A stretch of 64,000 nucleotides of DNA, from NCBI GenBank assembly GCA_017405965.1, contig JAFQZK010000018.1:16891-80890 (forward strand), in the 5' to 3' direction. Below the pieces are notes generated by a model. It was given only the letters and a program-made list of their open reading frames with translations, was not told the DNA's origin and did not search any database. This document shows, one piece after another, positions 1,991 to 53,201 of the stretch. The translations under genes and the position numbers were made by a program. Each line of letters opens with the position of its first letter. Within the stretch, counting starts at the first letter, position 1. The stretch comes from Muribaculaceae bacterium (GTDB taxonomy: Bacteria > Bacteroidota > Bacteroidia > Bacteroidales > Muribaculaceae).

Positions 1991-2068
1991 TACACTTTTC
2001 AAATATTTAAAATAGACAAAATCTACACTTTTCAATATCATTTACCGCTGCAAAATTACACTTCTCGA
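1991..2068 (-). repeat. Three direct repeats, 33-bp period, upstream of DUF4143 ATPase copy 1
   Basis: Plus-strand cores TACACTTTTCAA at 1991-2002 and 2024-2035 and TACACTTCTCGA at 2057-2068 are spaced exactly 33 bp. On the minus strand each reads roughly TTGAAAAGTGTAnATTTTG. The two promoter-proximal copies fall between the two possible start codons. A 33-bp spacing is about three helical turns, so a protein could bind all copies on one DNA face. The upstream copy also contains the -7 box TAATTTTG. Confidence 0.8.
2051..2058 (-). promoter_or_regulatory. -7 box for DUF4143 ATPase copy 1
   Basis: Minus-strand TAATTTTG matches the Bacteroidetes TAnnTTTG consensus. Transcription would begin near 2044, leaving an essentially absent leader for the 2041 ATG or a leader of about 60 nt for the 1984 ATG, which favours the latter. 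Confidence 0.55.
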
Positions 2069-2402
2069 ATCATGCCGCCAAAGAAAATCATAAAAAAGTG
2101 CTTACTTAGAAATCAAAAATGACGTCACCTCTTAGCGCCTTAATCTAAAATTGCCAAAAAGTTATTGTCTAAAACCTACGAAAATACTGAAATCATGAGG
2201 TTTGTACCAATTATTCAATTAGATGCTATAAATAATACCTATACTGGATGATTATTTCTTGATGATATCCGATGCCTGTCTTTACACATGGTTTTCTGTG
2301 TAGATAATACGGCTGGAACAATATTGATAAGGTCTCATCACAAATTTTATAAGACCCTCAAAAAAAAAGAATGAATTCCTCTTGTTTTGTCTTAGGCTAC
2401 AC
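2069..2402. other. Divergent intergenic region without a gene
   Basis: About 330 bp of AT-rich DNA between the leftward ATPase and the rightward GH97 gene. Apart from the promoters at its ends I see only short weak hairpins, for example TACACA and TGTGTA flanking an 8-nt loop near 2285-2305. Confidence 0.5.
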
Positions 2403-2410
2403 TATCTTTG
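2403..2410 (+). promoter_or_regulatory. -7 box for GH97 gene
   Basis: TATCTTTG fits TAnnTTTG, with a TTG at 2382-2384 as possible -33 element 18 bp upstream. It lies 23 bp before the chosen ATG at 2434, which supports that start over the upstream in-frame codon at 2371. Confidence 0.65.
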
Positions 2411-2433
2411 CAAAAACTCTATTTTACTGCAAC

Positions 2434-4389
2434 ATGGAACAGAAACTATTGTCATTAATGCTGCTAGCGGTATTCAGTTTGATTGCCGCTGCTGCGCCGA
2501 AAGAGGAAACGATCATCTCCCCTAATGGAAACATCAGAATTGAAGTCACCATCGGTGACCGATTGCAGTATAGTGTCTATTATGGTGAGGAGCAGGTGTT
2601 AAAGGACAATATCCTGACATTGCAGGTTGACAAGGGGCGGTTTGGCCAAAAGCCTGTTCTCAAGGACGTCAAGCGCTCTAGGATTGATAAGGTCATCAAA
2701 CCTGTAGTGCCCATGAAGTATGCCAATGTGCCCGACAGGGCAAATCAATTGACATTGTCCTTCAAGGATGGTATCGTCGTGGATTTCCGTGCCTACGACA
2801 ACGGCATCGCCTACCGTTTCAATATCAATAAGGGTAAAGGAAAAGTTGATGTTGTGGACGAAGGCGTGGAACTGAATTTTCCAGAGCCCTTCATCGCCCA
2901 CATCTCGAAGACAGATTCCTATGCCATGTCGTGTGAGAAGCCTTACACTCACGTCTCCACAGCCAAACTGAAAGAGGGGGACGAGATGACCTATCTGCCC
3001 ATCCTGTTTGAAAGCCCACGAGGGACAAAGGTGCTCTTTTCTGAGAGTGATGTCCGTGATTATCCCCACATCTTTCTGACACCTAATGGCAAGAACGGTT
3101 TTTCGTCTGTTTTTCCCAAGTCGCCCGATACATGGGTGCCCAGTGGTGACCGTGGCTGGCAGATTACTAAGGAACGTGACTGCATCGCTGCCAGCGTTGA
3201 CGGGCGGCGCACCTTGCCCTGGCGCTTTGCTGTCATCGGAGACGACGCTACCATCGCGGGGAATCAGATGGAAGTTGTGCTGGGTGGAAAATGCGAACTT
3301 GATGACGTGTCATGGATCAAACCCGGCCAGGTGAACTGGGACTGGTGGAACCACTGGACCGTCTGGGGGGTGGACTTTGAGACGGGCATCAACAATGATA
3401 CCTATAAATACATCATTGATGTGGCCTCACAATTTGGTGTGGAGTACATCCTTCTTGATGAGGGCTGGAACAAGAGCGTGGAAGACCCCTTTACCATACG
3501 TGACGAAATTGACGTTCAGGAACTGGTGGACTATGGACGCCAGAAAGGTGTGGGCGTCTGGCTATGGCTGTCATGGCTCACCGTCGAGCATCACATGGAC
3601 CTGATACCCTATTATGCCCAAATGGGTGTGAAGGGACTGAAAATCGACTTCATGGACCACAGCAACCAGTGGATGGTCAATTACTATGAACGCATTGTCC
3701 GCGAGTGTGCCAAGTACAAGCTGATGGTCGATTTCCATGGCGCGTTCAAGCCTTCGGGGCTTGAGCAGCGACTGCCCAATCTGCTGTCCTATGAAGGCGT
3801 GCTCGGGCTGGAGCAAGGTGCCGGATGTGAACCTAAGAACAGCATTTGGTTACCGTTTATGCGTAACGCCGTGGGAGCAATGGACTTCACGCCAGGCGCA
3901 ATGCAGAATGCACAGCCCGAGGATAACAAGGGTACCGGTTCACTGCCTATGGGTGGCGGTACGCGCGCCTATCAGATGGCACTATATGTCTGCTTCGAGA
4001 GCGGCCTGCAGATGCTGGCAGACAGTCCCACACGCTACCTGCGCGAAGCAGAATGTACCGAATTCATCGCATCTGTGCCCACGACCTGGGACGATACCCG
4101 CATCCTTGCTGCCAAGGCAGGTGACTACTATGTCGTGGCCAAGCGAAAAGGTGACCAGTGGTTCATCGGTGCTATCACAGGAGAGCGTAAGCAACCCCTC
4201 GATTTAACCATCTCACTTGACTTCTTGACCAAGCCGGGCCAATTGACCTATTTCCAGGACGGCCGCAACGCCCATCGCATCGCCGTGGACTACAAGAAGG
4301 GCGAGCAGACTGTCACCCCGCAGACTCAGTTACATCTTCACCTCGTCCGCAACGGCGGCTGGTGCGGCGTAATTGTAAATAGTGATTGA
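2434..4389 (+). CDS. Glycoside hydrolase family 97 (alpha-galactosidase or alpha-glucosidase)
   Basis: A 651-residue secreted enzyme starting MEQKLLSLMLLAVF, a signal peptide ending near AAAA. The N-terminal beta-sandwich (about 25-270) is followed by the (beta/alpha)8 barrel and a small C-terminal domain, the layout and length of GH97. GH97 enzymes act exo on alpha-linked gluco- or galactosides in the periplasm; SusB is the inverting archetype and BT1871 a retaining alpha-galactosidase. Here KIDFMDH places Asp405 where retaining members have their nucleophile and inverting SusB has Gly, while SYEGVLGLE keeps Glu454 and Glu460. I therefore lean to a retaining alpha-galactosidase. The gene stands alone with its own promoter and no SusC/D neighbours. 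Confidence 0.88.
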   Translation: MEQKLLSLMLLAVFSLIAAAAPKEETIISPNGNIRIEVTIGDRLQYSVYYGEEQVLKDNILTLQVDKGRFGQKPVLKDVKRSRIDKVIKPVVPMKYANVPDRANQLTLSFKDGIVVDFRAYDNGIAYRFNINKGKGKVDVVDEGVELNFPEPFIAHISKTDSYAMSCEKPYTHVSTAKLKEGDEMTYLPILFESPRGTKVLFSESDVRDYPHIFLTPNGKNGFSSVFPKSPDTWVPSGDRGWQITKERDCIAASVDGRRTLPWRFAVIGDDATIAGNQMEVVLGGKCELDDVSWIKPGQVNWDWWNHWTVWGVDFETGINNDTYKYIIDVASQFGVEYILLDEGWNKSVEDPFTIRDEIDVQELVDYGRQKGVGVWLWLSWLTVEHHMDLIPYYAQMGVKGLKIDFMDHSNQWMVNYYERIVRECAKYKLMVDFHGAFKPSGLEQRLPNLLSYEGVLGLEQGAGCEPKNSIWLPFMRNAVGAMDFTPGAMQNAQPEDNKGTGSLPMGGGTRAYQMALYVCFESGLQMLADSPTRYLREAECTEFIASVPTTWDDTRILAAKAGDYYVVAKRKGDQWFIGAITGERKQPLDLTISLDFLTKPGQLTYFQDGRNAHRIAVDYKKGEQTVTPQTQLHLHLVRNGGWCGVIVNSD

Positions 4390-4472
4390 TAATTACACCA
4401 TATAGTTCAGGGCGTTTTCCGTTGTTATGAAAAGTCTTTTTTATGCCATAATCTTTGTGCGGTATCAAAGTT

Positions 4473-4540
4473 TTTCATTAAATTCGCACCCAATCTCTAA
4501 AGGGAAGGACGTCCGTGAAGAGATTGCGAATTTAATCAAA
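4473..4540 (+). repeat. Large imperfect inverted repeat before the HD-domain gene
   Basis: Arms ATTAAATTCGC (4477-4487) and GCGAATTTAAT (4526-4536) pair over 11 bp, then AATCTCT (4492-4498) and AGAGATT (4519-4525) pair over 7 bp inside them, with a 4-nt bulge (ACCC) on the left arm. After one mismatch, TTTT and AAAA extend the stem outward. The 20-nt loop itself contains the palindrome GGACGTCC. It ends 13 bp before the HD gene start and has no downstream T-run, so it looks more like a leader structure or operator than a terminator. Confidence 0.75.
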
Positions 4541-4552
4541 ATGTAAAGATAT

Positions 4553-5146
4553 ATGGAAAGTCAAATTACAAGGGAGGCGGCTTGGGAACTGCTGAAAGAA
4601 TACAACAAAGACCCATTTCACTTGCAGCATGCGCTGACGGTGGAAGGTGTCATGCGCTGGTATGCAGGGCAACTTGGGTTTGCCGACGAAGCGGATTTTT
4701 GGGGTTTGGTAGGACTGCTGCATGACATCGACTTTGAGCAGTATCCCGAGCAGCATTGCATCAAGGCGCCTGAACTGTTGCGTGCAGGAGGCGTGGGCGA
4801 AGAAATGATTCACGCCATCTGCAGTCATGCTTACGGCTTGCATGTGGATGTAAAGCCTGAACATCTGATGGAGAAGGTGCTCTTCGCTACCGATGAACTG
4901 ACCGGACTGATATGGGCTGCTGCACTGATGCGCCCGTCGAAGAGTGTCCAGGACATGGAACTGAAGTCTCTCAAGAAGAAATACAAGACAAAGGCATTTG
5001 CCGCAGGCTGTTCCCGCGAGGTGATTGAACAGGGTGCGGAAATGCTGGGATGGCCCTTAGACGAGGTACTGCAAAAGACCCTCGACGCCATGAGGGCTTG
5101 TGAAGCACGGGTGGCAAGTGAGATGGATGTCGTCCTCAATGGATAA
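4553..5146 (+). CDS. HD-domain protein, predicted metal-dependent phosphohydrolase
   Basis: A 197-residue cytosolic protein. His26, His57-Asp58 (GLLHDIDFEQYP) and Asp114 (FATDELTG) supply the H...HD...D metal ligands of the HD superfamily, whose members hydrolyse nucleotides or phosphate esters. Length and the ICSHAYG segment match the stand-alone HDIG-type hydrolases common in anaerobes. The substrate cannot be inferred. It follows the GH97 gene by 160 bp with a large inverted repeat in the gap, so separate regulation is likely. The start ATG at 4553 is the first in frame. Confidence 0.8.
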   Translation: MESQITREAAWELLKEYNKDPFHLQHALTVEGVMRWYAGQLGFADEADFWGLVGLLHDIDFEQYPEQHCIKAPELLRAGGVGEEMIHAICSHAYGLHVDVKPEHLMEKVLFATDELTGLIWAAALMRPSKSVQDMELKSLKKKYKTKAFAAGCSREVIEQGAEMLGWPLDEVLQKTLDAMRACEARVASEMDVVLNG

Positions 5147-5324
5147 ATGCTATCCTACACAAACCAAACGACAACACATTATGTCACACAACTAACTCGT
5201 CGTATCTTTCAGCGAGTTAAAAACCAGTATGCTATTAAATTCTTTTTCGGATATACTTTAACGATATTATTTACATCAAAGGAGACTTTATATCAAGAAT
5301 TCTTAAACTTCAAAGACAAACTTT

Positions 5325-6218
5325 ATGGATATGAAAAACGATAGATTGCTTCACGATAAAGATACAAACGTAGTGTTTCTATCTCCTTGTCTGAACACTA
5401 AAAAATATGGTAATCCTGAGTTCTATAAGGAGTTGATGACTATACTGAAGGAAATGGGCATAGAAACAAGAGAACTTAAATGCACTCGCGATTATTGGGC
5501 TCGTGACTATATGCCAATTCAATTGAGTGAGAATGAGTTCTTGAAGTATCATTATTGTCCAGATTATCTTATTAATAAGGATGATATTGATTCAATAACG
5601 GATGTTTCAAAAGTGATGTCCTGCATGGGTGTTCACTGTCGTTCTACCAATTTAATCATAGATGGCGGTAATATGGTACCTTGCGGTCCATACATCGTGA
5701 TGACAGATAAGGTCTTTTCTGAAAACAGGAAAAAGAAAGATGATGCTGCCTTTAAGGCTTTATTGGAATCTGAACTTGGCCATCCTGTTATCGTTATTCC
5801 CTGGACTCCGCATGAAGATGATGTATATGGACATTCGGATGGCTTCGTCAAGTGGTGTGGTGATAATCGAATACTGATGGGGAATCATGGCGATTGCCAT
5901 CCTGAAGAAGCAGCATCCATCCGTCGGATTCTTGAAAGTTATGGCTTTGAGGTGACAGAAATGCGCTTCAAAGATAAAGTCTCTTTGCCTTGTTATGAAT
6001 TCAACTGGGCATATATCAACTTTCTTCAAGTGGGCAAAAACATCCTAATGCCTATATTCGATATTCCAGAAGATACAATAGCCCAGCAATATATTCAAAA
6101 AGCATTCCCTGATTGCAATATTCGTCAAATAGAAATGGCAGCGATTGCAAAAAAAGGGGGCGCTTTACATTGTATAAGTTGGAATGTTTATCTTCCAAAA
6201 TCACATGTGAAAACGTAA
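5325..6218 (+). CDS. Agmatine deiminase / peptidyl-arginine deiminase family protein
   Basis: A 297-residue protein of the PAD_porph family, which removes the guanidino imino group of agmatine or arginine via a Cys nucleophile. Visible catalytic elements are RDYMP with Asp61, GGNMV at 114-118, GHSDGF with His170 and Asp172, and GGALHCISWN with Cys283. It is shorter than classical agmatine deiminases (about 340-370 residues) and has ARDYMP where AguA has TRDNGP, so substrate could differ. No signal peptide is visible, arguing for a cytosolic role. The gene is distinctly AT-rich and lacks polyamine-pathway neighbours, which suggests transfer. A Met two codons later (5331) is an alternative start. 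Confidence 0.8.
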   Translation: MDMKNDRLLHDKDTNVVFLSPCLNTKKYGNPEFYKELMTILKEMGIETRELKCTRDYWARDYMPIQLSENEFLKYHYCPDYLINKDDIDSITDVSKVMSCMGVHCRSTNLIIDGGNMVPCGPYIVMTDKVFSENRKKKDDAAFKALLESELGHPVIVIPWTPHEDDVYGHSDGFVKWCGDNRILMGNHGDCHPEEAASIRRILESYGFEVTEMRFKDKVSLPCYEFNWAYINFLQVGKNILMPIFDIPEDTIAQQYIQKAFPDCNIRQIEMAAIAKKGGALHCISWNVYLPKSHVKT

Positions 6219-6287
6219 ATCACCACCTATGAGATATTTTTGTCCCTCGGCTATTTTTCTACTATCTCGGGGGACAAAATGGGTGAT
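6219..6287 (+). terminator. Imperfect hairpin after the deiminase gene
   Basis: TTTTGTCCC (6238-6246) pairs with GGGACAAAA (6271-6279), and outer ATCACC (6219-6224) pairs with GGTGAT (6282-6287). It begins just behind the deiminase stop codon. It may terminate the rightward transcript; there is no classical T-run after the 3' arm, so the role is tentative. Confidence 0.45.
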
Positions 6288-6288
6288 A

Positions 6289-6384
6289 ATCTGCAAATAT
6301 CGAAGTTAAAAATCAAAAATCTGCAAAAATAGACAAATCTCTGAATGCTTGAAATTATGCGATTTACGGGCTATATTTGCAGAT
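6289..6384. repeat. Inverted repeat ATCTGCAAATAT / ATATTTGCAGAT
   Basis: Perfect 12-bp arms at 6289-6300 and 6373-6384 separated by 72 bp. The right arm includes TATATTTG (6372-6379), a good plus-strand -7 box, although no plus-strand gene follows; transcription from it would run antisense into the 3' end of mnmE. Confidence 0.6.
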
Positions 6385-6426
6385 AGTATGCTTTTCTTTG
6401 CAAAAAAACTCTTTCCCAAGCAAAAT

Positions 6427-7824
6427 CTACTTGCCGATGCAGAAGTGGGTGAAGATTTCGGCGAGGATGTTGTCGGTGGTGATTTCGCCGGTGATTTCGC
6501 CGAGCCAGTGGAGGCATTCGCGGATGTCCTGGTCGAGGAGGTCGCCGCTCAGGCCGCTGTCGAGGCCGTCGATGGCGCGGGCAATGGCGTCGCGGGCGCG
6601 GGTCAAGGCCTGGTAGTGGCGAGCGTTGGTGACGATGACAGCGTCACCGCTCACATCGGGCAGAGAGGCAGTCTTGACGATGAGGTTGCGCAGTGCTTCG
6701 ATATCGGCTTCGCATTTGGCGCTGATGGCAACGACTGGCGTTTCCTTGGGCAAGTGATCGCTCAGTTCACTCCTTGCGGCGACATCGTCGTCAAGGTCGG
6801 TCTTGTTGAGCACAGCGATGAGTCGTTTGCCCTCACAGCGGGTGAGGATGTCATGGGCCATACTGATGTCGGCACTGGTGACGTCAACTACCCAAAGCAC
6901 GACGTTGGCCTTGTCGATGGCCTGCCAGGTGCGTTCGATGCCCATCCGCTCGACAGTGTCGCTCGACTGGCGGATGCCCGCCGTGTCGATGAAGCGGAAC
7001 AGGGTTCCTCCCATGATGACGGTGTCCTCGATGGTATCGCGTGTGGTACCATGGATGTTGCTCACCAGAGCGCGGTCGTCGCCCAGCAGAGCGTTGAGCA
7101 GCGTGGATTTTCCGGCATTAGTCTGGCCGACGATGGCGACGGGCAAACCGTTGCGAATGGCGTTACCCTCGCGGTAACTGTCGGCCAAGCGGCTGATGAG
7201 CGAGTGGATCTCCCGGGCCAGCGAAGTCACCTCGCTGCGATCGGCAAAAGTCACGTCCTCCTCGCTGAAGTCCAGTTCCAGTTCGATGAGCGCCGTGAAG
7301 TGCAGCAACTTATCTCTCAGGTTCTTCAATTCATCGCTATAGCGGCCGCGCATCTGGCTCATCGCCACACGGTGTGCCGCACGAGACTGAGCCTCGATGA
7401 CGTCGGCGACCGCCTCGGCCTGTGACAGGTCCATGCGGCCGTTGGCAAATGCGCGTCGCGTGAATTCGCCCGCTGTGGCGTGGCGACAACCCGCGTCGAT
7501 AAGTGTCTGTATCACCTGCTGCTGAATCCATGTCGAGCCGTGGCATGCCAACTCCACCACATCCTCGCCAGTGAACGAATTGGGCGCCTTGAAGACGGTC
7601 AATACCGCTTGGTCAAGCACATCGCACTTGTCATCGATCAACTGGCCCAAGTGAACGGTATGTGAAGCCATGTCGACAAGCGGTTTGCCCTGCCAACGAC
7701 GTTGTACGATGTCAAACGCCTGCGGGCCACTCACACGGATGACAGCGATTCCTCCCCTACCCTGAGGTGTCGAGACGGCACAGATGGTGTCACCCGAAAA
7801 TCCGGTTAATTCTATGCTGCTCAT
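6427..7824 (-). CDS. mnmE: tRNA modification GTPase MnmE
   Basis: A 465-residue protein of full family length. With MnmG it installs the 5-carboxymethylaminomethyl group on wobble uridine 34 of certain tRNAs. The N-terminal folate-binding domain opens with STPQGRGGIAVIRVSG. The embedded G domain has G1 GQTNAGKS (233-240), DTAGIR from 280 and NKTDL, and the protein ends in CIGK, whose Cys is required for modification. Its ATG at 7824 overlaps the stop of the upstream nuclease gene by 4 nt, so the two are probably co-translated. Confidence 0.97.
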   Translation of the reverse strand: MSSIELTGFSGDTICAVSTPQGRGGIAVIRVSGPQAFDIVQRRWQGKPLVDMASHTVHLGQLIDDKCDVLDQAVLTVFKAPNSFTGEDVVELACHGSTWIQQQVIQTLIDAGCRHATAGEFTRRAFANGRMDLSQAEAVADVIEAQSRAAHRVAMSQMRGRYSDELKNLRDKLLHFTALIELELDFSEEDVTFADRSEVTSLAREIHSLISRLADSYREGNAIRNGLPVAIVGQTNAGKSTLLNALLGDDRALVSNIHGTTRDTIEDTVIMGGTLFRFIDTAGIRQSSDTVERMGIERTWQAIDKANVVLWVVDVTSADISMAHDILTRCEGKRLIAVLNKTDLDDDVAARSELSDHLPKETPVVAISAKCEADIEALRNLIVKTASLPDVSGDAVIVTNARHYQALTRARDAIARAIDGLDSGLSGDLLDQDIRECLHWLGEITGEITTDNILAEIFTHFCIGK

Positions 7825-8705
7825 CGGCGGGGATAATATGCGGGCCAGTCCTTGATGTTCTCTTTGCTCTCGATGACATTCTCGACTTCATCCTCGAGCG
7901 AAGGGAGGAAGTCATAGCCTGTCAGGGCCTCCACCTTGTCGATGGTGGTGGCATAGTTGGTCCAGCTGTTGGGCATCTTCTTGTTTTCCATCACGAAAGC
8001 GATGGCGCGGTTCTGCTCAGGCGAGTAGATGACCTTGAAGAATCTCTCGGGCACGGCGATGTCGTCATGCTTACCGATGCGCTTCATATTGTTGGAGAAG
8101 ATAGGGCCAGTGAGCACGATCAGCCTCTTGGCTGTTCTCGACCACTTGTGCACCGCTTCCTCGACATGGCGCCACTCGCCGTCGTTCATCTCGTCGAGCT
8201 GCGGGCAGATGTTGGTCATCAAGAAGCACTGCTCCATCGCCGTCTTGTCCCAGCGCATATCCATCGCCGGCGCCATGTGACCGCGGGTGTAGCCGCTCTC
8301 CTTGTACTCCCACCAGTCGGGACAGCCCTTCACGTCGTAATCCCGCTCAAACTTGTAGTTGGCGCGGTTCTCGGCATCACGCGAGTCGGCCATCGAGGTC
8401 ATGGTACTCGTCAGCTCGTAGGCCACACAATTGGGCACACGGTAATACTTGTTGAAATACACCACAATCGACTTGTAGCGCACCGTCTGGTTATCGAGGC
8501 GCTCAGGCAACTTCACGTCGAGCAGCGACTGGTCGCCCGTGGACTTATACTCCTTACCCTCTTGCTGCACGGCTTTACCGTCATCATAGGCGCTCTTGTA
8601 GAACGAGTCCACCTGGGCAGTCTCCTCGACGCGCTCATTGCCGCCGCGGCATCCCGTCAAGGCCACCGCCAGCAGCAAGAAAACAAAAAACAGATGCTTT
8701 TTCAT
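7821..8705 (-). CDS. DNA/RNA non-specific endonuclease, lipoprotein
   Basis: A 294-residue protein starting MKKHLFFVFLLLAVALTGC; the TGC lipobox predicts a lipid-anchored envelope protein. The body is the beta-beta-alpha metal nuclease of the NucA/NUC1 family: TRGHMAP holds the catalytic His, and MTNICPQ supplies the metal-binding Asn. Such enzymes degrade extracellular DNA and RNA for nutrition or defence. In-frame upstream Met codons (to 8738) are possible, but the Lys-rich signal sequence favours 8705 or 8708. It is translationally coupled to mnmE by a 4-nt overlap although the functions look unrelated. Confidence 0.88.
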   Translation of the reverse strand: MKKHLFFVFLLLAVALTGCRGGNERVEETAQVDSFYKSAYDDGKAVQQEGKEYKSTGDQSLLDVKLPERLDNQTVRYKSIVVYFNKYYRVPNCVAYELTSTMTSMADSRDAENRANYKFERDYDVKGCPDWWEYKESGYTRGHMAPAMDMRWDKTAMEQCFLMTNICPQLDEMNDGEWRHVEEAVHKWSRTAKRLIVLTGPIFSNNMKRIGKHDDIAVPERFFKVIYSPEQNRAIAFVMENKKMPNSWTNYATTIDKVEALTGYDFLPSLEDEVENVIESKENIKDWPAYYPRR

Positions 8706-8755
8706 CATTATCGTATCTCGTGACATTAAATTGTTCAACTATACATTTGATGTCG

Positions 8756-9680: not shown

Positions 9681-9711
9681 CCCGGCCGCTGCCCCCTTCG
9701 GAGGCTGAACA

Positions 9712-38380: not shown

Positions 38381-39310
38381 ATGTTTTTATTAATTATAGC
38401 ATTGGCCTTGGGCCTGTTGATGCCCTTCCAGACGGCGGCCAACTCACGCCTGCGTCAGGTCGTTGGCCCCGCCTATGTCTCCACACTTGTTTCTTTCACC
38501 GTGTCCACGTTGGCACTGCTGCTGGTGTCGCTCGTGGCCGGAATCCCCATCATGCCGACCGAAACAATGCTGGCCGAGGCTCCCTGGTGGAGCTGGTTTG
38601 TGGGCATCGTGGCTGTGGTGACCATCACCATCGCCATCCATCTGTTCAAGGAAATCGGCCAATTGCAGGCACTCATCATCCCGATGTTCAGCCAACTGAT
38701 CTTCAGTTTGCTGATTGACCACTTCGGGTGGTTCGGTGCCAGAGTCATCCCGTTGGGTACCAACCGCATCATCGGAGCACTGTTGCTCATCATCGGTGTG
38801 ACACTAGTGGTCGTGCTGCCCAGGCTGAAAGCCAAGCAACAGACCACCTCAGCCAGCAGCGGGTCAAGGCAGACTTTCTGGCAACTCATGGCCGTCGTGT
38901 CGGGCTGCCTGTCGGCCAGTATCACTGGCGCTTATGCCCAGTTGGCCAGTATCGTCGGCAACCCAGTCCAGGCCACGACGGTCGCCTTCTTCGTCGCCAC
39001 GATGGCATTGCTGCTGTTCTGCACCTGCCTGGGCAAGACACAACTGGTGGGTAAGGCCTTCAACAAGGAGTACCCGTGGTGGATGTGGACAGGTGGCCTG
39101 TGCGGTGCCGTCATCGTGTTCAGCAACGCATGGCTTGTCCCGCAAGTCGGTGTCGGCGTCTTCTCCATGGCTTTGCTCGTCGGTCAGCTGGCGCTCAGCA
39201 TGTTAATGGAGCACAACGGCTGGCTCGGTGCCCCGCGCAAGCGCATCACCTGGCTCCCGATCGTCGGCATCCTGCTGATGCTCGCCGGTGTCGCCCTCAT
39301 CCGCCTGTAA
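38381..39310 (+). CDS. DMT superfamily transporter with two YdcZ (DUF606) repeats
   Basis: A 309-residue inner-membrane protein of about ten helices made of two homologous halves (1-150 and 165-309), each with the YdcZ/DUF606 pattern (LLMPFQTAANSRLRQVVGP; SASITGAYAQLASIVGNP). Export of small metabolites is typical of the superfamily; the substrate is unknown. It lies 170 bp behind the carbonic anhydrase gene, in a gap with no clear promoter. Confidence 0.85.
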   Translation: MFLLIIALALGLLMPFQTAANSRLRQVVGPAYVSTLVSFTVSTLALLLVSLVAGIPIMPTETMLAEAPWWSWFVGIVAVVTITIAIHLFKEIGQLQALIIPMFSQLIFSLLIDHFGWFGARVIPLGTNRIIGALLLIIGVTLVVVLPRLKAKQQTTSASSGSRQTFWQLMAVVSGCLSASITGAYAQLASIVGNPVQATTVAFFVATMALLLFCTCLGKTQLVGKAFNKEYPWWMWTGGLCGAVIVFSNAWLVPQVGVGVFSMALLVGQLALSMLMEHNGWLGAPRKRITWLPIVGILLMLAGVALIRL

Positions 39311-39322
39311 AGCGCTAGCGCT
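39311..39322. repeat. 12-bp palindrome AGCGCTAGCGCT
   Basis: Perfect palindrome just behind the transporter stop codon. A related CCGCTAGCGC lies at 50625-50635. Possibly part of a terminator. Confidence 0.4.
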
Positions 39323-39394
39323 CACTGAATCCGCCTAAATGTTGTTTTGTCATTGATGACACCTTCGAGCGACTGCTTTCAACAATGCCAATCC

Positions 39395-39490
39395 GAAAAT
39401 TTTAGCTAAAATCAGCGACTAAAACCGAAAAAATTAGCTAAATTTAGCGGTTATAACCGAAAAATTTATTATAAATTTGGCGGTTTCAAG
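39395..39490 (+). repeat. Three tandem degenerate 32-bp repeats upstream of DUF4143 ATPase copy 2
   Basis: Contiguous units at 39395-39426, 39427-39458 and 39459-39490. Each starts GAAAA(A/T), has a central TTA or TAA with A/T-rich flanks, and ends in an (A/G)GCG-(G/A)-(T/C)T block. The middle unit contains the perfect palindrome CGGTTATAACCG. The third unit ends 9 bp before the -7 box. Confidence 0.75.
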
Positions 39491-39499
39491 AATTATATC

Positions 39500-39507
39500 T
39501 ATTTTTG
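39500..39507 (+). promoter_or_regulatory. -7 box for DUF4143 ATPase copy 2
   Basis: TATTTTTG, 27 bp before ATG 39535. A TTG in this box would be an alternative start codon at 39505 and is rejected for that reason. Confidence 0.65.
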
Positions 39508-39534
39508 TATCCGAGAAGATGTTGCTTTAAACCT

Positions 39535-40656
39535 ATGATACAGAGACAAATTGAATCCAACCTGAAGCAAGACTTCGGTCAAGGCAAAGTTATCGTGCTG
39601 CTCGGTGCACGTCAAGTGGGAAAAACCACAATGATTGATGCGTTGAGTCATGGCGCCAATGACGTCCTCATACTCAATTGCGACGATCAAGAAGACGTCT
39701 TGCTCATCGAGGGGAGAAGCACAACCGAGTTGAGGACGCTGCTGTCACCTTACCGATATGTCTTCATCGATGAGGCTCAACGGGTCAAGAACATCGGGCT
39801 GACGATTAAGAAGATGGCCGACTTGAAACTCCCGACTCAAGTGATTGTTACAGGGTCATCGTCATTGGAATTGGCCAACGACATCAATGAGCCAGCTACA
39901 GGCCGCACAATCGAGTACAGGCTATATCCCTTGTCTCTTTCAGAATTGGCCCAGGAAACCAGTGAACGTGAAGAATCACGAATGCTGCAACAACGGCTCA
40001 TTTACGGATGCTATCCAGGAGTTGTCACCGATAGCGCCCATGCAAAGCGCACGTTAGCGACTTTGGCCAACGATTATTTATATAAAGACATTTTAGCCTA
40101 TCGGGGCATCAAGAAACCTGAAGTGTTGCAAAAACTTGTACGGGCTCTTGCCCTGCAAGTGGGTAGCGAAGTCTCCTATAATGAATTGAGCAATCTTTTA
40201 GGAGTTGACAAGGAGACTGTAGAGAGCTATATCGGGCTGCTGGAGAAGTGTTTTGTCGTTTTCCGCCTCGATTCTTTCAGCCGAAACCTGCGTAACGAAA
40301 TCAAGAAGGGAAAAAAAGTCTATTTCTATGACAACGGCATCCGCAATGCAGTCATTTCCAACTACGCTCCCCTTGAGCTGAGGATGGATAATGGTGCCTT
40401 GTGGGAAAATCTGATGGTGAGCGAACGCATCAAACGCAACATGTATAGCGGCAGTTTTGCACAGTTGTATTTTTGGCGCACGCATGACCAAAAAGAGATA
40501 GACCTGATTGAGGAGGAGGATGGAATGATACGAGCATTTGAGTTCAAATGGAATCCACGGGCCAAGTCACGCGTGCCTGAACAGTTCATCAAGACGTATG
40601 CTCCGAAAGTTTTTTCTGTCATCACCCCAGATAACTTTTGGGAGTTTGTAAAGTGA
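39535..40656 (+). CDS. AAA family ATPase with DUF4143 C-terminal domain (copy 2)
   Basis: A 373-residue protein. Walker A is GARQVGKT (24-31), Walker B YVFIDEAQ (about 79-86), and VTGSSSLELA is the sensor-like block of AAA_14 proteins. The C-terminal DUF4143 part has QKEIDLIEEE followed by AFEFKWNP, an Asp...Glu-x-Lys pattern like the other copies. The linking region (SYNELSNLLGVDKETVESYIGLLEK) looks like a winged helix. It is shorter than copies 1 and 3, lacking their long insertions. The gene is AT-rich relative to its neighbours and appears inserted into an otherwise metabolic plus-strand run. Confidence 0.87.
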   Translation: MIQRQIESNLKQDFGQGKVIVLLGARQVGKTTMIDALSHGANDVLILNCDDQEDVLLIEGRSTTELRTLLSPYRYVFIDEAQRVKNIGLTIKKMADLKLPTQVIVTGSSSLELANDINEPATGRTIEYRLYPLSLSELAQETSEREESRMLQQRLIYGCYPGVVTDSAHAKRTLATLANDYLYKDILAYRGIKKPEVLQKLVRALALQVGSEVSYNELSNLLGVDKETVESYIGLLEKCFVVFRLDSFSRNLRNEIKKGKKVYFYDNGIRNAVISNYAPLELRMDNGALWENLMVSERIKRNMYSGSFAQLYFWRTHDQKEIDLIEEEDGMIRAFEFKWNPRAKSRVPEQFIKTYAPKVFSVITPDNFWEFVK

Positions 40657-40701
40657 AGGAGTTTTCAACAAAGTTTGATTTGATTTAATATATTATTGAC
40701 T

Positions 40702-47290: not shown

Positions 47291-47304
47291 GGGGAGAGAC
47301 AGGT

Positions 47305-47330
47305 TAAAGGTTAAAGGTTAAAGGTTAAGG
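47305..47330. repeat. GGTTAAA heptamer array
   Basis: Four near-perfect 7-bp units right behind sbcC. Confidence 0.75.
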
Positions 47331-47342
47331 CTGAAAAATAAA

Positions 47343-47368
47343 GGAGCGGCACAAGAATGTGTCGCTCC
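47343..47368. terminator. Terminator between sbcC and DUF4251 gene
   Basis: GGAGCGGCACA (47343-47353), AGAA loop, TGTGTCGCTCC (47358-47368): 11 pairs with one wobble, flanked by A-rich and T-rich ends. It serves the convergent genes on both sides. Confidence 0.85.
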
Positions 47369-47386
47369 CTTTATACCTTCACGTCA

Positions 47387-47878
47387 TTAGTCAAACTTCA
47401 TCTCGCCGTCAAACGAAATGGCATCTCGTTCCTGGGCAATGATATCGATAATGGACTTGCCATTGTTGAACACGTCGATGCGGAAGTAGTACACGTCCTC
47501 GCCGTTGTTCACCATGAACTCGATGTGAGAACGGTTACTCGTGGGATAGGTAATCGTGTAGTTCTCGATTTTACCCTTGAAATTCAAGCCCTTGCCACCA
47601 CCATAAGGCACACGGTAGGCCTCACCGACATAGGGGAGATAACTGTCCACCTCGTCGCCGTTCACCTTAAGCTCATAGTTCGACGTCACATGACGAGCCA
47701 TGCCACCCAGCGGTTTCATCCAGTCCACGGCAATGGTGTAATGGCGCGTGTCAAGACCTTCCTGCACTTGGCGAGTCACCTGAGCCTCACGTTCGGCTTT
47801 GGTCAAGCCATTACCAGTGCCACACGCAGTGAACAGCACCGTCAATGTTGCAAATAAAATCAGATAAATGCGGTTCAT
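47387..47878 (-). CDS. DUF4251 domain lipoprotein
   Basis: A 163-residue protein with lipoprotein signal MNRIYLILFATLTVLFTAC. The mature part matches the DUF4251 family common in Bacteroidales: YELKVNGDEVDSYLPYVG, split by the typical PYGGGKGLNF block, and a closing RIDVFNNGKSIIDI. The function is unknown; an envelope location is expected. A good promoter lies about 115 bp upstream, leaving a long leader. Confidence 0.85.
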   Translation of the reverse strand: MNRIYLILFATLTVLFTACGTGNGLTKAEREAQVTRQVQEGLDTRHYTIAVDWMKPLGGMARHVTSNYELKVNGDEVDSYLPYVGEAYRVPYGGGKGLNFKGKIENYTITYPTSNRSHIEFMVNNGEDVYYFRIDVFNNGKSIIDIIAQERDAISFDGEMKFD

Positions 47879-47994
47879 AATACTGTTTAGATTTTAATGT
47901 TACACAACACAGGAGCCCACATCCAGTCGGGCAACCCTTTTTAATAATTCACATCAATGCGGCAATCTGCCACAATAAACTGTCGCAAATTACG

Positions 47995-48002
47995 CAAAAA
48001 TA
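47995..48002 (-). promoter_or_regulatory. -7 box for DUF4251 gene
   Basis: Minus-strand TATTTTTG followed by CGTAATTTGCGAC. Confidence 0.55.
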
Positions 48003-48090
48003 ATAATGAATTCCAAATTATTTTCGGAAATTTTTCTTTAATTACCGATTTCAGTCCTTAAAAACCATTTATCGATAGGGAAAGCCCTCA

Positions 48091-50406
48091 TTACCTGATG
48101 ACTGCAATCTTGGTCACCACGGCCTCTCCGCTGCCATTGGCCTGAGAGCAGAGCACCATATAAACACCGGTCTTGACGCGGTCACCGTTCTGGTCGCAGC
48201 AATCCCAGGTTGCCATACCGCCGGTCGACTTGAGCTGACGAATGACAAAGCCGCTGGCATCGGCAATCTTAATCAAGGAGTTGTCCATCAGACCCATAAT
48301 CGTCACGTCGGACATGAATTCGGGTCGAACGGGGTTGGGATAAGCATAGATGTTATCATAGGTGGGTTCGGCAGGACTGGAGTCGCTGAAGTATTCATAC
48401 AAGCCTGCCGGTGTGGTCAAATACACCGAATTACTGTTGGGGTTGCAGCACACCTGGTAAACCGTGTTAGACGACAGGGGGCTGTTCGTCATGTTGAAAC
48501 GGTTGATGATCTTGGTGCCGTCGGCACTCACCAGGAACAGACCCGACGACTGCGTGGCGATCCACTTGCGATTGGCGCCATCAACGGCAATGTCATTGAC
48601 CTGGATACCGTCCAGCAGATAATCGGCCATGCCCGTGCCGTCGTTGCGCGGCACTTTGATGCGATTGACCCTGAAGTCGTTAGAGAAAGCCTGTGCTGGG
48701 TTGAATGTGATGACTCCCTCGGTACATCCCATCCACACGATGCCGTTCAGATCCTCGGCAAAGCACATGATATTGGTCCAGGCAAACGACTGACCATCCT
48801 GGTCGATGAGCTTATTGTAGGAAGCCTGTTGCGGACGCGACGACAAGCCGTCATCAGTAACCCAGAAGAATACCGGCATTTCGAAATCACCATCGGTAAA
48901 CACTTTGATGTCGTGATTGTTGTAACGTGTCGAGAGGAAACGGCCTCGCTGTGAATGACCAGTATAGATGCCGTCGATCTCGAGAGTCGTCCAGTCTTCG
49001 GCCGTAGTCTGATTGAGTTTGGCCTTAGCGGCGGGCAGCACCATCACATAGTTTTCCTTATTCTCATAGGGCTGAACGACCCACACGTTGCCGTTGCGGT
49101 CGATGCTCGTAATAGGGTGCATCGAGTAGCTCTTCTTTATCGGACTGTTCGTGTTGTCATACTTGAAGACGATCTCATTGTTCACCACCTTGAGCAGACC
49201 GTCTCGCCAAGTGCCCAGGAAATAAGTGTCAGGTGCATCGGGCAGGAACTCAACCCAATAGCATCCGTTTTCGGGGGCATCGTCGGGGGTCACATCATCC
49301 CACTTGATGCCGTCAAAGGTGTTGACTGCGGTAGGGGTTGTTGACGAGAAGAAGCCGTTGGCGCTGGGAGGAGTCACATACAGCAGGTCTTTAGACTTGT
49401 TGTAGGTCATCCAGAACGGGGTCGAGAACGACAAGGCATTGGGAAGATAGAAACCGCCTTTTCCAATAATGTGGAGGCCTTGAACTCCGGCTGCCCACAA
49501 ATCACCCTGTCCTGCAGGATGAGCGCTGCATATCTCGTTCTCCACTTCAAGGAGTTCAGCGGTCCCTCCATCGGGTCCGGTCTCATAACACTGGCCCTGA
49601 CTCGGGACGTTGAGCAGGAAACCACCGTCAACTGTTGATTGAGGTGTGATAGAACTACCCATGATGATTGTAGAGGGAACGAAATTGAGCGTGCCGTCAT
49701 CCAGCTCTTCAATTTTGGTCTGGAATGTCCATCCCGTCATGCAGAAGAAGGTTTGGTCATCGATGGGCCATATACGGCAGTTGACCTTGCTATCGGTGGC
49801 AAGGTTGAACGATGACAAGAGCTCATGGTACTCGTCGGCAAAACCATAATAGAATTTGTCGGCAGTGGACAGCAGCAGGTAGTCACCCACCTGAGCCACC
49901 GATACCATGGGTTCGCCATACAAGTGCGACTCCTTGATGACAAACTTACTATCATCTATCACCGCATAGCCGAAGTCGGTGGCAAGATAGATCAGCCCGG
50001 GGCCGAAGGTCACGTCATTGATTGTCTTGCCCGCCGTCATCACAGCATCCTTGATCTCGGGCATATTCACCACTGCACCGTTTGACTTGATCACGTCGAT
50101 GTTGGAGTTGCTGTAAACGACCACCAGATAGTCCTTGACCTTGTTATAGTAAATCTGCGAAATGGTCATGTCGCTCAGGTCGTTGATCACGCTCAGCGAC
50201 TCGTTCTCGTTGTTTTCTTTGTCCAGGCGAAACAGGTTGTCGCCCGCCAGATAGTAAACATAAAGCCTGGTCTCGACAACCGACTTCACGTTGGTGCCGA
50301 CAAACGGCACATGAAGGCGCCAATCGCCCACACCATTCTGAGCTGCCGCGAGCAGCGACATCAACGAAACGAACACCAGCAAAAATATCTTCTTAGCCAT
50401 TTTCAT
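48091..50406 (-). CDS. porZ: PorZ-like beta-propeller protein of the type IX secretion system
   Basis: A 771-residue secreted protein (signal MKMAKKIFLLVFVSLMSLLA). The N-terminus, with WRLHVPF, LYVYYLAGDNLFRLD, LSDMTISQIYY and YSNSNIDVI, follows the PorZ N-terminal propeller pattern. Further propeller-like blocks (NVWVVQP, GIVWMGCTEGVITFN, RKWIATQSSGLFLV) fill the centre. The last 80 residues, YAYPNPVRPEF through TGVYMVLCS, are a type A sorting domain of the type IX system. In Porphyromonas PorZ works at the surface with the attachment complex that links cargo to A-LPS. The start at 50400 is an alternative. It stands as a single gene. Confidence 0.8.
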   Translation of the reverse strand: MKMAKKIFLLVFVSLMSLLAAAQNGVGDWRLHVPFVGTNVKSVVETRLYVYYLAGDNLFRLDKENNENESLSVINDLSDMTISQIYYNKVKDYLVVVYSNSNIDVIKSNGAVVNMPEIKDAVMTAGKTINDVTFGPGLIYLATDFGYAVIDDSKFVIKESHLYGEPMVSVAQVGDYLLLSTADKFYYGFADEYHELLSSFNLATDSKVNCRIWPIDDQTFFCMTGWTFQTKIEELDDGTLNFVPSTIIMGSSITPQSTVDGGFLLNVPSQGQCYETGPDGGTAELLEVENEICSAHPAGQGDLWAAGVQGLHIIGKGGFYLPNALSFSTPFWMTYNKSKDLLYVTPPSANGFFSSTTPTAVNTFDGIKWDDVTPDDAPENGCYWVEFLPDAPDTYFLGTWRDGLLKVVNNEIVFKYDNTNSPIKKSYSMHPITSIDRNGNVWVVQPYENKENYVMVLPAAKAKLNQTTAEDWTTLEIDGIYTGHSQRGRFLSTRYNNHDIKVFTDGDFEMPVFFWVTDDGLSSRPQQASYNKLIDQDGQSFAWTNIMCFAEDLNGIVWMGCTEGVITFNPAQAFSNDFRVNRIKVPRNDGTGMADYLLDGIQVNDIAVDGANRKWIATQSSGLFLVSADGTKIINRFNMTNSPLSSNTVYQVCCNPNSNSVYLTTPAGLYEYFSDSSPAEPTYDNIYAYPNPVRPEFMSDVTIMGLMDNSLIKIADASGFVIRQLKSTGGMATWDCCDQNGDRVKTGVYMVLCSQANGSGEAVVTKIAVIR

Positions 50407-50550
50407 TCTTTTTTCTTGACGTGAATAGTTACAACAGGAAGCCGCAATGGCCTCTTTATGATTATATATAACGTAAACACCACCCTGAAAATTGTGCAGA
50501 CCCTTGATTATCCACAAAACACAAGCCTATGCCGCATCAAGTGGGACAAT

Positions 50551-50608
50551 AAACGCGACAAGCACAAGTAATTGATTGTTAAACAACTACGTTGTGCTTG
50601 TCGCGTTT
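50551..50608. terminator. Long hairpin terminator, 17-bp perfect stem
   Basis: AAACGCGACAAGCACAA (50551-50567) and TTGTGCTTGTCGCGTTT (50592-50608) pair completely around a 24-nt loop that itself has TTGTT and AACAA. It lies downstream of the aminotransferase gene and should end that transcript. Confidence 0.8.
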
Positions 50609-50648
50609 TTACTATCCTGATAGACCGCTAGCGCAGTCTTGAGATGTG

Positions 50649-51842
50649 TCAGGCGAGCTTGGCGAGGGCGGCGGCGATGCGCTTAGCGGCCTCGATCAGG
50701 TTCTCGTCGCTGGTGGCGTAGCTCAGGCGGATGTAACCCGGGCAGCAGAAGGCGCTACCGGCCACGGTGGCGACATGGGCCTCGTTCAACAGATAGAGGG
50801 CGAGGTCGTTGTCGTCGTTGATGACGGTATCACCGTAGCTCTTGCCGTAGTAGTGCTCTACCCTGGGGAAGGCGTAGAAGGCACCGTCGGGCATGTTGAG
50901 CTCGAAACCGGGGATTTCCTGCAGCAGGCCCACGATGAGGTTGCGGCGACGCTCAAAGGCGACACGCATCTCCTCAACGCAATCCTGCGAGCTGTTATAA
51001 GCAGCCTCGGCAGCCTTTTGGGCGATCGATGAAACACCGCTGGTGTACTGGCCCTGCAGCTTGGTCACAGCCTTGGCGAGCCATACGGGAGCAGCGATGT
51101 AACCGATACGGTAACCTGTCATGGCATAAGATTTGGATACACCGTTGACGATGACTACCTGGTCCTTGATGGCCTCGAACTGAGCCAGCGACTCGTGCTT
51201 GCCCACGTAGTTGATGTGCTCGTAGATTTCGTCGGCGATGACCATCACATTGGGGTGACGCTCAAGCATCTCGGCAATGGCTTTCAACTCATCATAGGTG
51301 TAGATAGCGCCGCTGGGGTTGCTGGGCGAGCAAACGACGATGACACGGGTCTTGTCGGTCATGACGGCTTCCAGCTCGGCAGCAGTCACCTTGAAGTTCT
51401 TCTCCATGCTCGAGGGCAGCAGCACGTTCTTGCCACCGGTAAGGTTGACCATCTGCATATAGCTTACCCAAGCTGGAGTGGGAATAATCACCTCGTCGCC
51501 GGGGTTGACAAGTGCCATGATGGCGTTGCACAGCTCGTGCTTGGCACCGTTACCGATCACAATCTGGTCGGGGGTGTATTCCAAGCCGTTCTCGCGGCGC
51601 AGTTTCTCGCACACGGCCTGACGCAGCGACAGATAGCCGGGAACGGGAGAATAGAACGAGTAGTTGTCGTCGATGGCCTGCTTGGCAGCAGCCTTGATGT
51701 GGTCGGGGGTGAAGAAGTCGGGTTCGCCCACCGAGAGGTTAATCACATCCACGCCCTGAGCGCGCAGCTCGCTGCTCTTTTGTGACATGGCCAAGGTGGC
51801 ACTGGGTGCCAGTGCGTTAATACGGTCCGAAAGTCGGTTCAT
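50649..51842 (-). CDS. Class I PLP-dependent aminotransferase (aspartate aminotransferase type)
   Basis: A 397-residue fold-type I enzyme. Lys237 in NGVSKSYAMTGYR binds PLP; Asn175 (SPSNPSG), Asp204 and Tyr207 (ADEIYEH) and Arg245 complete the cofactor site. The length and SVGEPDF near residue 40 match aspartate aminotransferases of the Ib subgroup, which may also use prephenate. It is a single gene with a strong promoter. Confidence 0.92.
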   Translation of the reverse strand: MNRLSDRINALAPSATLAMSQKSSELRAQGVDVINLSVGEPDFFTPDHIKAAAKQAIDDNYSFYSPVPGYLSLRQAVCEKLRRENGLEYTPDQIVIGNGAKHELCNAIMALVNPGDEVIIPTPAWVSYMQMVNLTGGKNVLLPSSMEKNFKVTAAELEAVMTDKTRVIVVCSPSNPSGAIYTYDELKAIAEMLERHPNVMVIADEIYEHINYVGKHESLAQFEAIKDQVVIVNGVSKSYAMTGYRIGYIAAPVWLAKAVTKLQGQYTSGVSSIAQKAAEAAYNSSQDCVEEMRVAFERRRNLIVGLLQEIPGFELNMPDGAFYAFPRVEHYYGKSYGDTVINDDNDLALYLLNEAHVATVAGSAFCCPGYIRLSYATSDENLIEAAKRIAAALAKLA

Positions 51843-51903
51843 TGTTTTATCTGTTTAAAGTAGTAAGTTTTTAGTTTTAAGTCAATTAGTCTGATTTATG
51901 GTG

Positions 51904-51934
51904 CAAAGATAAGGCTTTTTTGGGGAATACACAA
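51904..51934 (-). promoter_or_regulatory. Promoter of the aminotransferase gene
   Basis: Minus-strand TTG (complement of 51932-51934), 20 bp, TATCTTTG (complement of 51904-51911). Confidence 0.7.
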
Positions 51935-51961
51935 CTATTCTCCAGAAATAGATAAGAGATA

Positions 51962-52050
51962 ATAGATAATGGATAGATAATGGATGGATAATGGATGGAT
52001 AATGGATGACAGTTAGCAACTCCTAACTTCTAACTTCTAACTCCTAACTC
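51962..52050. repeat. Two simple tandem arrays before the aminotransferase promoter
   Basis: About four 11-bp units of ATAATGGATGG (51967-52008), then CTAACTT/CTAACTC heptamers (about 52018-52050) that run into the 3' end of the acyltransferase gene. Confidence 0.75.
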
Positions 52051-53000
52051 TTCGCCACCACCCTGCCGTTCACAACCTTGAAGCGGCGCTCAAACTCCTC
52101 GCGCGTGCGTTTCCAGCGGTTGTGGCTCCACAACCAGTACTGTGGGGCACGGTTGATGGTCTGCTCCATGCGCTTGAAAAAGATGTCGGTCAGCTCAAAC
52201 TCACCAAACGTCGACGGGTCGCGTGTGATGACCTGGAACTCGCACTCGTAGCGTCCGCGTCCCACATGTTTCACATCCACATAGACGACCGCTTGATTCT
52301 GGGAGTGGACGATGCGTTCAATACCGGTGAACACGGGAGTGTCGGGATGGTTGAGGAAGGTGAGCCAATGGTGGATGTTCTCCCACTTGGGCACCTGGTC
52401 GTTGATATATCCCAGTATCGTGGGACGGCCATCGCGCTTGTTGCCGATAATCCAGCGCAAGGTCTCCATCTTGGAAACGCTGTCCGAGCCCATGCGACCG
52501 CGCGTCTTCAACACGACGCGGTTGATGACCTCGTTCTCGAGCGGATGATAGATCTGCCCCATGACCGCATTGTTGGTGATCAGGGGACGCAACCACAGCA
52601 CGAGCGAAGACACCCATTCCCAGTTGCCGTAGTGACCCAGCAGCAAGGCGATCGACTGGCCGCTGTTGAGAATCTCGGCCACCTTGTCGGCACCAGTGAA
52701 CCTCATGCGCTGCATGATGTTCTTGTCGGTAATTGAGGTGTATTTCACCGTCTCGACCAGGATGTCGCAAAAGTGGCGATAGAACTGCATCCGCAGCTTT
52801 TTGAGTTCCTTGTCGCTCTTGTCGGGATAAGCGCTACTCAGGTTCTTGCTGATCACGCGGTGACGATAACGCAGCACATAGGCTATCAGCACAAACAGAA
52901 TGTCACTGAACAGGTAGTGCAACCACAACGGCAGCAACGACAACCCGTACCACGCCCCGTAAAGCACCCAAAACGCTATGTTATCCAACACTTTTTTCAT
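52044..53000 (-). CDS. Lipid A acyltransferase (LpxL/HtrB family)
   Basis: A 318-residue inner-membrane protein with an N-terminal anchor (FWVLYGAWYGLSLLPLWL). LLGHYGNWEW carries the His-x4-Glu catalytic pair of the family, and RWKRTREEFERRF closes the chain. It should transfer a secondary acyl chain to Kdo-lipid A or an equivalent. Bacteroidales lipid A is usually penta-acylated, consistent with a single late acyltransferase; no second copy lies in this window. The upstream in-frame codon at 53039 is unlikely. Confidence 0.88.
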   Translation of the reverse strand: MKKVLDNIAFWVLYGAWYGLSLLPLWLHYLFSDILFVLIAYVLRYRHRVISKNLSSAYPDKSDKELKKLRMQFYRHFCDILVETVKYTSITDKNIMQRMRFTGADKVAEILNSGQSIALLLGHYGNWEWVSSLVLWLRPLITNNAVMGQIYHPLENEVINRVVLKTRGRMGSDSVSKMETLRWIIGNKRDGRPTILGYINDQVPKWENIHHWLTFLNHPDTPVFTGIERIVHSQNQAVVYVDVKHVGRGRYECEFQVITRDPSTFGEFELTDIFFKRMEQTINRAPQYWLWSHNRWKRTREEFERRFKVVNGRVVAKS

Positions 53001-53067
53001 TCCGCCCGCTAAAGTACAACAATTTATCGGCATAGGCAAGTCTTACCTGTCCCAACAAACTCAAAAA

Positions 53068-53201
53068 TTTAGGAATTTCTGCAAAAAACACGCAAAATAA
53101 TTTTCGGAATTTACACAAAAATAGATAAAAACATTTCGCTGATTTCAACAAAAAATGCTTGAAAAATTTTCGGTATTCCGACATTTTCTATAATTTTGCG
53201 C
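53068..53201 (+). repeat. Four degenerate tandem repeats upstream of DUF4143 ATPase copy 3
   Basis: Units beginning TTTAGGAATTT (53068), TTTCGGAATTT (53102), TTTCGCTGATTT (53134) and TTTCGGTATTCC (53168), spaced 34, 32 and 34 bp. The first three continue into an A-run (CAAAAA); the last carries the palindromic CGGTATTCCG and leads into the -7 box. Confidence 0.7.
53191..53198 (+). promoter_or_regulatory. -7 box for DUF4143 ATPase copy 3
   Basis: TAATTTTG followed by CGCAC, 35 bp before ATG 53234; supports that start over the TTG at 53159. Confidence 0.65.

Follow-up and report, generated by a model that had tools for sequence, protein, structure and literature searches.

Evenly spaced, subfamily-specific repeat arrays precede many DUF4143 ATPase genes and are candidate binding sites for the encoded proteins

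DUF4143 genes and upstream arrays in the window

The window (the whole 64,000-nucleotide stretch analysed here, part of a 3.6-Mb draft genome of a Muribaculaceae bacterium) holds three genes for DUF4143 ATPases, each of which is preceded by an array of short, evenly spaced repeats. All three proteins give AAA_14 and DUF4143 profile matches above cut-off and match the PADLOC PDC-S01 models (best E-values 2.7e-178, 4.6e-160 and 3.3e-93). The -7 boxes assigned below are putative, and were called with a TAnnTTTG-type motif, which we take to be the -7 promoter element.

Copy 1 lies at positions 620–1984 on the minus strand, with its start codon placed at 1984. Its array (1986–2066, minus strand) consists of three cores of the GAAAAGTGTA type, at 1986–2000, 2019–2033 and 2052–2066, with a spacing of exactly 33 bp; the putative -7 box TAATTTTG (2051–2058, minus strand) overlaps the core farthest from the gene. 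Allowing up to two mismatches, this core is matched three times in the 64 kb, always within the copy 1 array, against 0.15 matches expected in the 64 kb; the exact core pair has a single occurrence in the 3.6-Mb genome, at copy 1's own promoter.

Copies 2 and 3, also PDC-S01 matches, are encoded on the plus strand, at 39535–40656 and 53234–54568, respectively. The copy 2 array (39391–39490, plus strand) comprises three palindromic 32-bp units of the ACCGAAAAATTTA...TAAATTTGGCGGTT type, in which CCGAAA begins, by eye, at 39393, 39425 and 39457, a spacing of 32 bp (the array finder set the third one base off), and is followed by a putative -7 box, TATTTTTG, at 39500–39507 (plus strand). The copy 3 array (53068–53182, plus strand) has four degenerate TTTcGGaATT units which, by eye, start at 53068, 53102, 53134 and 53168, giving spacings of 34, 32 and 34 bp; the array finder resolved two of the four. 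The putative -7 box of copy 3 is again TAATTTTG (53191–53198, plus strand).

Dinucleotide shuffles of the 220-bp upstream regions reached the observed self-alignment score at a lag of 31–35 bp in 2/1000 cases for copy 1 and in 0/1000 for each of copies 2 and 3; for any lag of 15–80 bp the figures were 10/1000 for copy 1 and again 0/1000 for the other two. The copy 3 self-alignment has a lag of 34 and a score of 20, which no shuffle (0/1000) attained. These coordinates and shuffles confirm the repeats of 32–34-bp period that the first-pass annotation had described before all three genes, and its observation that the unit differs at each copy is likewise supported. Its count of three DUF4143 genes falls short for the genome, which has nine matches, eight of them above the family cut-off. 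Upstream of the other six the period is 23 bp in two cases, 33 bp in two and 39 bp in one, with no repeat before the last (a weak member), so that a 32–34-bp period is not universal; nor do the data support a need for a spacing of about three helical turns, since classes of 23 and 39–41 bp exist.

Repeat periodicity across the family

DUF4143 genes were drawn from relatives, from the wider phylum and from Lachnospiraceae, the upstream region being defined as the 220 bp before the start nearest to 25 codons ahead of the P-loop. From 200 distinct upstreams, 195 were usable after removal of five for N or short length; this set is made up of P-loop genes in DUF4143 loci, a few of which are P-loop neighbours of DUF4143 genes. 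Control genes came from the window and some of the same genomes, and were reduced from 158 to 151 by removing six with a P-loop and one sharing the intergenic region of copy 3. Several of the figures reported here depend on reading by eye.

The best self-alignment falls at a lag of 31–35 bp with a score of at least 14 in 103/195 family upstreams and in 1/151 controls, which bears out the expected excess of 30–36-bp periodicity in the family. A score of at least 14 at some lag between 18 and 80 bp is reached by 143/195 family upstreams, which divide by best lag into the 103 at 31–35, 15 at 23, seven at 39–41 and 18 elsewhere, the last being partly at multiples of the other three classes; a self-alignment of score 14 is absent from 52/195. 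Arrays of 23, 31–35 or 39–41 bp precede 125 of the 195 sampled genes, about two thirds. When the proteins were clustered at 50% identity, 25 of the 67 representatives had a lag of 31–35 and seven a lag of 23. A looser count (any score in the range, before removal of the copy 3 neighbour) of upstreams scoring at least 14 at a lag of 31–35 gave 80/119 for the family and 5/152 for controls.

Repeats do occur before control genes, 19/151 of which score at least 14 at any lag, with 0/151 at 23 or 39–41. Their usual lag is 21, arising from 7-bp microsatellites, and control matches with a score of at least 16 at any lag are mostly of this short-period, lag-21 kind, the others being two lag-79 duplications and the intergenic neighbour of copy 3. 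Such microsatellites lend some colour to an origin of the arrays by chance or by replication slippage in AT-rich upstream DNA; against it, a lag of 31–35 with this score appears in 0/585 dinucleotide shuffles and in 0/68 AT-rich controls (GC at most 0.37), the spacings are confined to a few values, and PF09820, another paralogous AAA family in the same genome set, has a lag of 31–35 in 0/17 genes (taken from 30 loci). On the control and shuffle counts we reject chance or AT-richness as the source of the repeats, and give this explanation a negligible probability. In control stretches (L155, L159 and others), 7-bp tandem repeats stand before several ordinary genes, with lags of 21, 28 or 35.

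Among tree members without direct repeats, an inverted-repeat score of at least 12 was found in 20/44, as against 12/151 controls. Palindromes are not specific to DUF4143, an inverted-repeat score of 12 being found at 4/17 PF09820 genes. The six P-loop genes dropped from the controls include two other ATPases, one in L158 and one in L162; the latter (L162:1780–3219, minus strand) belongs to another P-loop family, and its promoter carries a palindromic repeat of 23 bp. Upstream of three Lachnospiraceae genes (L183, L184 and L189), one site occurs twice, 63–74 bp apart, flanking the putative promoter.

Promoter location and subfamily-specific spacing

A TAnnTTTG -7 box was recognisable for 104 of the 111 arrays outside the Lachnospiraceae loci. 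Of these 104, 81 overlap the promoter core (-33 to +1), compared with 60% for uniform placement, 16 lie upstream of -33 and seven lie wholly downstream of the -7 box. The first-pass annotation had placed the array beside the -7 box; in the family at large, most arrays overlap the promoter itself. Such overlap suits an operator, but is modestly above chance placement and not strong on its own. The seven downstream arrays, together with the palindromic 32- and 40-bp units, which could fold, might instead point to repeats that function at the RNA level, in leader hairpins or as an array-like transcript, a reading that we consider highly improbable. The short length of the arrays, their place at promoters and their match to the protein encoded next to them led us to set aside a CRISPR-like array.

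Spacing is characteristic of the subfamily, with values of 23, 32, 33–34 or 39–41 bp; units of 32 and 40 bp are often palindromic and those of 23 and 33 bp mostly direct. On the protein tree the spacing class changes 43 times, compared with a mean of 88.9 when shuffled, and 12 of the 14 lag-23 rows fall in one starred clade that covers Bacteroidales and Lachnospiraceae. The unit sequence also follows the protein: a unit is shared (score of at least 16) by 53/54 pairs at 80–95% protein identity, 67/81 at 65–80%, 45/150 sampled pairs at 50–65%, 13/150 at 40–50%, and 5/198 pairs without a BLAST hit.

Conservation of the core extends across phyla. In Bacteroidota, Actinomycetota and Bacillota alike, copy-1-like genes are preceded by GAAAAgTGT cores, for the most part at 33-bp intervals; the copy 1 cores are kept in Prevotella, Segatella and Collinsella, and two of the three in Vescimonas, where the third is disrupted and a lag of 42 scores best, followed by 33. 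In a Prevotella plasmid, Segatella hominis, Collinsella aerofaciens (Actinomycetota; 35% protein identity) and Vescimonas fastidiosa (Bacillota; 39%), the cores are in register whilst the spacers are unrelated, so neutral linkage alone is insufficient to explain these cases. In Treponema saccharophilum, 32-bp repeats precede a copy-2-like gene; in Agathobacter rectalis, a gene is preceded by four 33-bp units. Among the 14 named plasmid loci, two of which (L316 and L327) had no usable start and were left unscored, repeats were not found upstream of members from Thermus, Runella, Acinetobacter, Selenomonas and Desulfosarcina.

A subfamily-specific array of fixed spacing that travels with its gene suggests that each protein reads its own array. 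Control of the DUF4143 genes by a different regulator that binds these sites would be compatible with the sequences, but the units differ among the paralogues of one genome and yet the cores follow homologous proteins across phyla, a pattern that one host regulator would not explain; we regard such a regulator as improbable. Selection on paralogues to differ is not supported. The first-pass annotation had proposed that distinct units let paralogues coexist, and at equal protein identity same-genome units are no more different than others, albeit with few pairs: at 50–60% identity a unit is common to 5/11 same-genome pairs and 110/400 other pairs, without excess divergence, and at 60–70% to 2/5 and 76/131, respectively.

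Candidate DNA-binding and nuclease features of the proteins

Within the DUF4143 domain of copy 2, residues 208–240 (40156–40254, plus strand) form a helix-turn-helix-like stretch, seen in the alignment of 15 members and as a weak HTH_11 match (E-value 0.034, below its cut-off); no such match was among those listed by the Pfam scan for copies 1 and 3. Further along, a PD-(D/E)XK-like set, E291...D323...E336xK338 (40405–40548, plus strand), is invariant in the 15 aligned copy-2-like proteins; the corresponding set of copy-3-like proteins (E349, D380, E393 and K395) is invariant in 14 members. The P-loop AAA domain, the helix-turn-helix-like stretch of copy 2 and the invariant E...D...ExK of two subfamilies could equip DUF4143 proteins to bind and cleave DNA.

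In the copy-2 family, E227 is the column, among 313, that best predicts sharing of the unit after correction for overall identity. The residue opens the presumed recognition helix, and 4/359 windows score higher than its own. Together with the weak helix-turn-helix match, this makes the self-recognition and autoregulation proposed in the first-pass annotation plausible, if indirectly so; the corresponding signal is weak in the copy-1 family, where 87/439 windows are higher, and absent in the copy-3 family (312/429 higher). A single specificity-determining segment for all subfamilies was considered and rejected, the signal being clear in the copy-2 family only.

Searches for solved relatives with single sequences gave nothing significant (best E-values of 0.85 for copy 1 and 0.17 for copy 2); a copy-2 profile matched generic P-loop ATPases only (best E-value 0.0047), and a copy-3 profile had no match up to an E-value of 5.

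Movement of array and ORF

The first-pass annotation had missed the mobility of array and ORF. Between relatives at unrelated sites, homology often begins at the 5′ edge of the array and ends near the stop codon. In 25 of 57 homologous pairs (72–99% protein identity; the pairs share loci and are not independent) it begins no more than 10 bp from the start of the array, and for 14 of the 25 its end, too, is within 10 bp of the stop codon; in seven further pairs of the 57 it begins 31–34 bp inside the array, a distance of one unit. On the right the edge is less constant, lying anywhere between the stop codon and some 200 bp past it. To judge from these alignments, array and ORF can move between genomes as one unit.

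Empty sites are found for copy 2, the left neighbour of which has matches in 21/61 genomes (the window's own included). The stretch at 39304–40694 (plus strand) is replaced by 28 bp in G006, and that at 39314–40701 by 44 bp in G034, the neighbours standing at these distances without array or ORF; elsewhere, G006 has a copy that is 88% identical to copy 2, with unrelated flanks. In a third genome, G018, the copy 2 insertion site (L333:2440–2620) appears by eye to contain the beginning of another DUF4143 gene, which has a palindrome of its own, as though two separate invasions had struck this gap.

The clearest instance is a block shared by five Lachnospiraceae genomes (three not titled as MAGs), which on the left breaks off sharply at one point, 7 nt ahead of the first unit; four of five compared pairs are 99% identical, and the fifth (L140–L142) 96%. 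Part of the left flank of the block is common to L137, L140 and L142, and the far left flank of L136 has stretches in common with the far right flanks of L138 and L142. The left flank of L138, in which the block runs from near 2869, has repeats that by eye resemble those before the Vescimonas copy-1-like gene, so that elements may land side by side.

A second array, of 56–63 bp, follows the stop codon in seven of the 105 genes with enough downstream DNA, at a distance of 0–2 nt in four and 36–68 nt in three, with net match scores of 51–59. In six of these genes the units are palindromic and belong to the 32- or 40-bp class; the seventh (L121) has a lag of 33. Partial second arrays (scores of 17–28) are found at four more genes, and shuffled downstream DNA gave none of at least 16. 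A DNA search with one paired array against the 61 genomes returned 15 matches in eight genomes. Eight of the 15 fall in G001, G029 and G005 and correspond to the paired arrays at L030, L037 and L114, with both strands read in G001; the matches in G038 and G020 adjoin DUF4143 genes, two in G026 are at a contig end and cannot be judged, and that in G034 is short, with no DUF4143 gene within 1.5 kb. In G015, a solo two-unit array (L357:1501–1567) is flanked by a queuosine-synthesis gene and an RNase III gene. There is no DUF4143 match within 1.5 kb of it, the nearest listed on the contig being about 4 kb off and of another type, and a close copy-2-like protein was not found in this genome (the best match is remote, with an E-value of 7.8e-17).

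A unit at unrelated sites with common edges, together with empty sites, is a transposon-like trait. The main rival reading, unlikely in our view, is that the array serves chiefly for recombination or as an end of a mobile element of one gene, whose ATPase-nuclease moves or excises array and ORF, the overlap of the array with the promoter being secondary. Such an element would account for the shared edges, the abrupt edge of the Lachnospiraceae block, the empty copy 2 sites, the full and partial second arrays and the solo array in G015. It fits less well with the 98/105 genes in which a full second array was not found, with the variable right edge, and with the three window proteins, in which the Pfam scan found no transposase, integrase or recombinase domain; no target-site duplication was recognised by eye, the copy 2 edges being too diverged, and the edges in diverged pairs could come from selection on functional DNA alone. 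Slightly more doubtful is the further proposal that DUF4143 ATPase-nucleases are autonomous one-gene mobile elements whose own array is recognised and used as both operator and element end, excision between flanking arrays leaving a solo array. If this were true, one of the commonest candidate defence genes would itself be a selfish cassette with many recognition codes.

An apparent case of intragenomic transposition in G022, where a 1796-bp identical block occurs at two places, was left uncounted, as the block is bounded by N runs on both sides at one place, and at the other by N within about a base or by an N run, and carries dispersed repeats, and may thus be a scaffolding artefact. Viral carriage was given no support by scans of viral contigs, which found no relative; 13 phage-collection records match the copy 3 protein. 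Several pairs of DUF4143 genes within a few kb of one another occur on G059:C54, G018:C13, G002:C118, G058:C116 and G034:C49.

Proposed function and relation to known systems

We propose that the array is probably the neighbouring ATPase's own binding site and serves autoregulation; possibly, it also serves as the end of a one-gene mobile cassette. In such a mechanism, a winged-helix-like part of the DUF4143 protein would bind the evenly spaced sites, usually two to five, over or beside its own promoter, and the bound ATPase would repress its own gene until it is titrated away or set free, for example during infection. Unit sequence and spacing diverge together with the protein, giving each subfamily its own array, and array and ORF pass to descendants and to other genomes as a single compact unit, the left end of which is the array.

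Several known systems offer parallels. The iteron arrays of plasmid replication initiators are fixed-spacing direct repeats beside the gene of the binding protein, with a unit that differs by family. The DUF4143 arrays resemble them as evenly spaced direct repeats next to the gene of a presumed binder, but lie at the promoters of single genes; no replication function or origin was noticed. Autoregulated operons such as toxin–antitoxin modules have palindromic or repeated operators at their own promoters, whereas here there is a single ATPase-nuclease gene, and the array additionally forms the left boundary of what is transferred; in a toxin–antitoxin database paper, neither AAA nor ATPase is present as a whole word. 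Integron gene cassettes combine one ORF with a short recombination-like site and move compactly; in contrast, the DUF4143 site precedes the promoter and accompanies its own gene.

The DUF4143 family is very common and suspected of a role in anti-virus defence. The phage-defence candidate PDC-S01 of PADLOC corresponds to the DUF4143/COG1373 ATPases, as the window proteins match its models and combine an AAA domain with a PD-(D/E)XK-like set. It is reported to be the most frequent individual locus in a set of rumen genomes (PMC13356809). The available passages published on PDC-S01 cover abundance, domain make-up and phylogeny, and within them upstream repeats and one-gene mobility are not mentioned; a full-text search of openly accessible journal papers (subscription papers and preprints excluded), judged by title and opening of the abstract, likewise found no description of upstream arrays at DUF4143, COG1373 or PDC-S01 genes. 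The array amounts to a predicted DNA ligand for each protein, a concrete and cheap handle by which binding, repression, release on infection and mobility become directly testable, and the arrays would provide many natural protein–site pairs for reading a recognition code.

Repeats are also present upstream of the DUF234/COG1672 ATPases, which correspond to a second PADLOC candidate, PDC-S27 (3/3 DUF234 proteins tested match); these belong to another family and have a shorter period, of 15–16 bp. Among 30 DUF234 genes (L286–L315; 30 loci, one of which gave an extra ORF and one none), a lag of 31–35 was found in 0/30. The best upstream lag is 15 or 16, with a score of at least 14, in 8/30, some of these being visibly palindromic, and an inverted-repeat score of at least 11 is reached by 17/30, compared with 16/151 controls.
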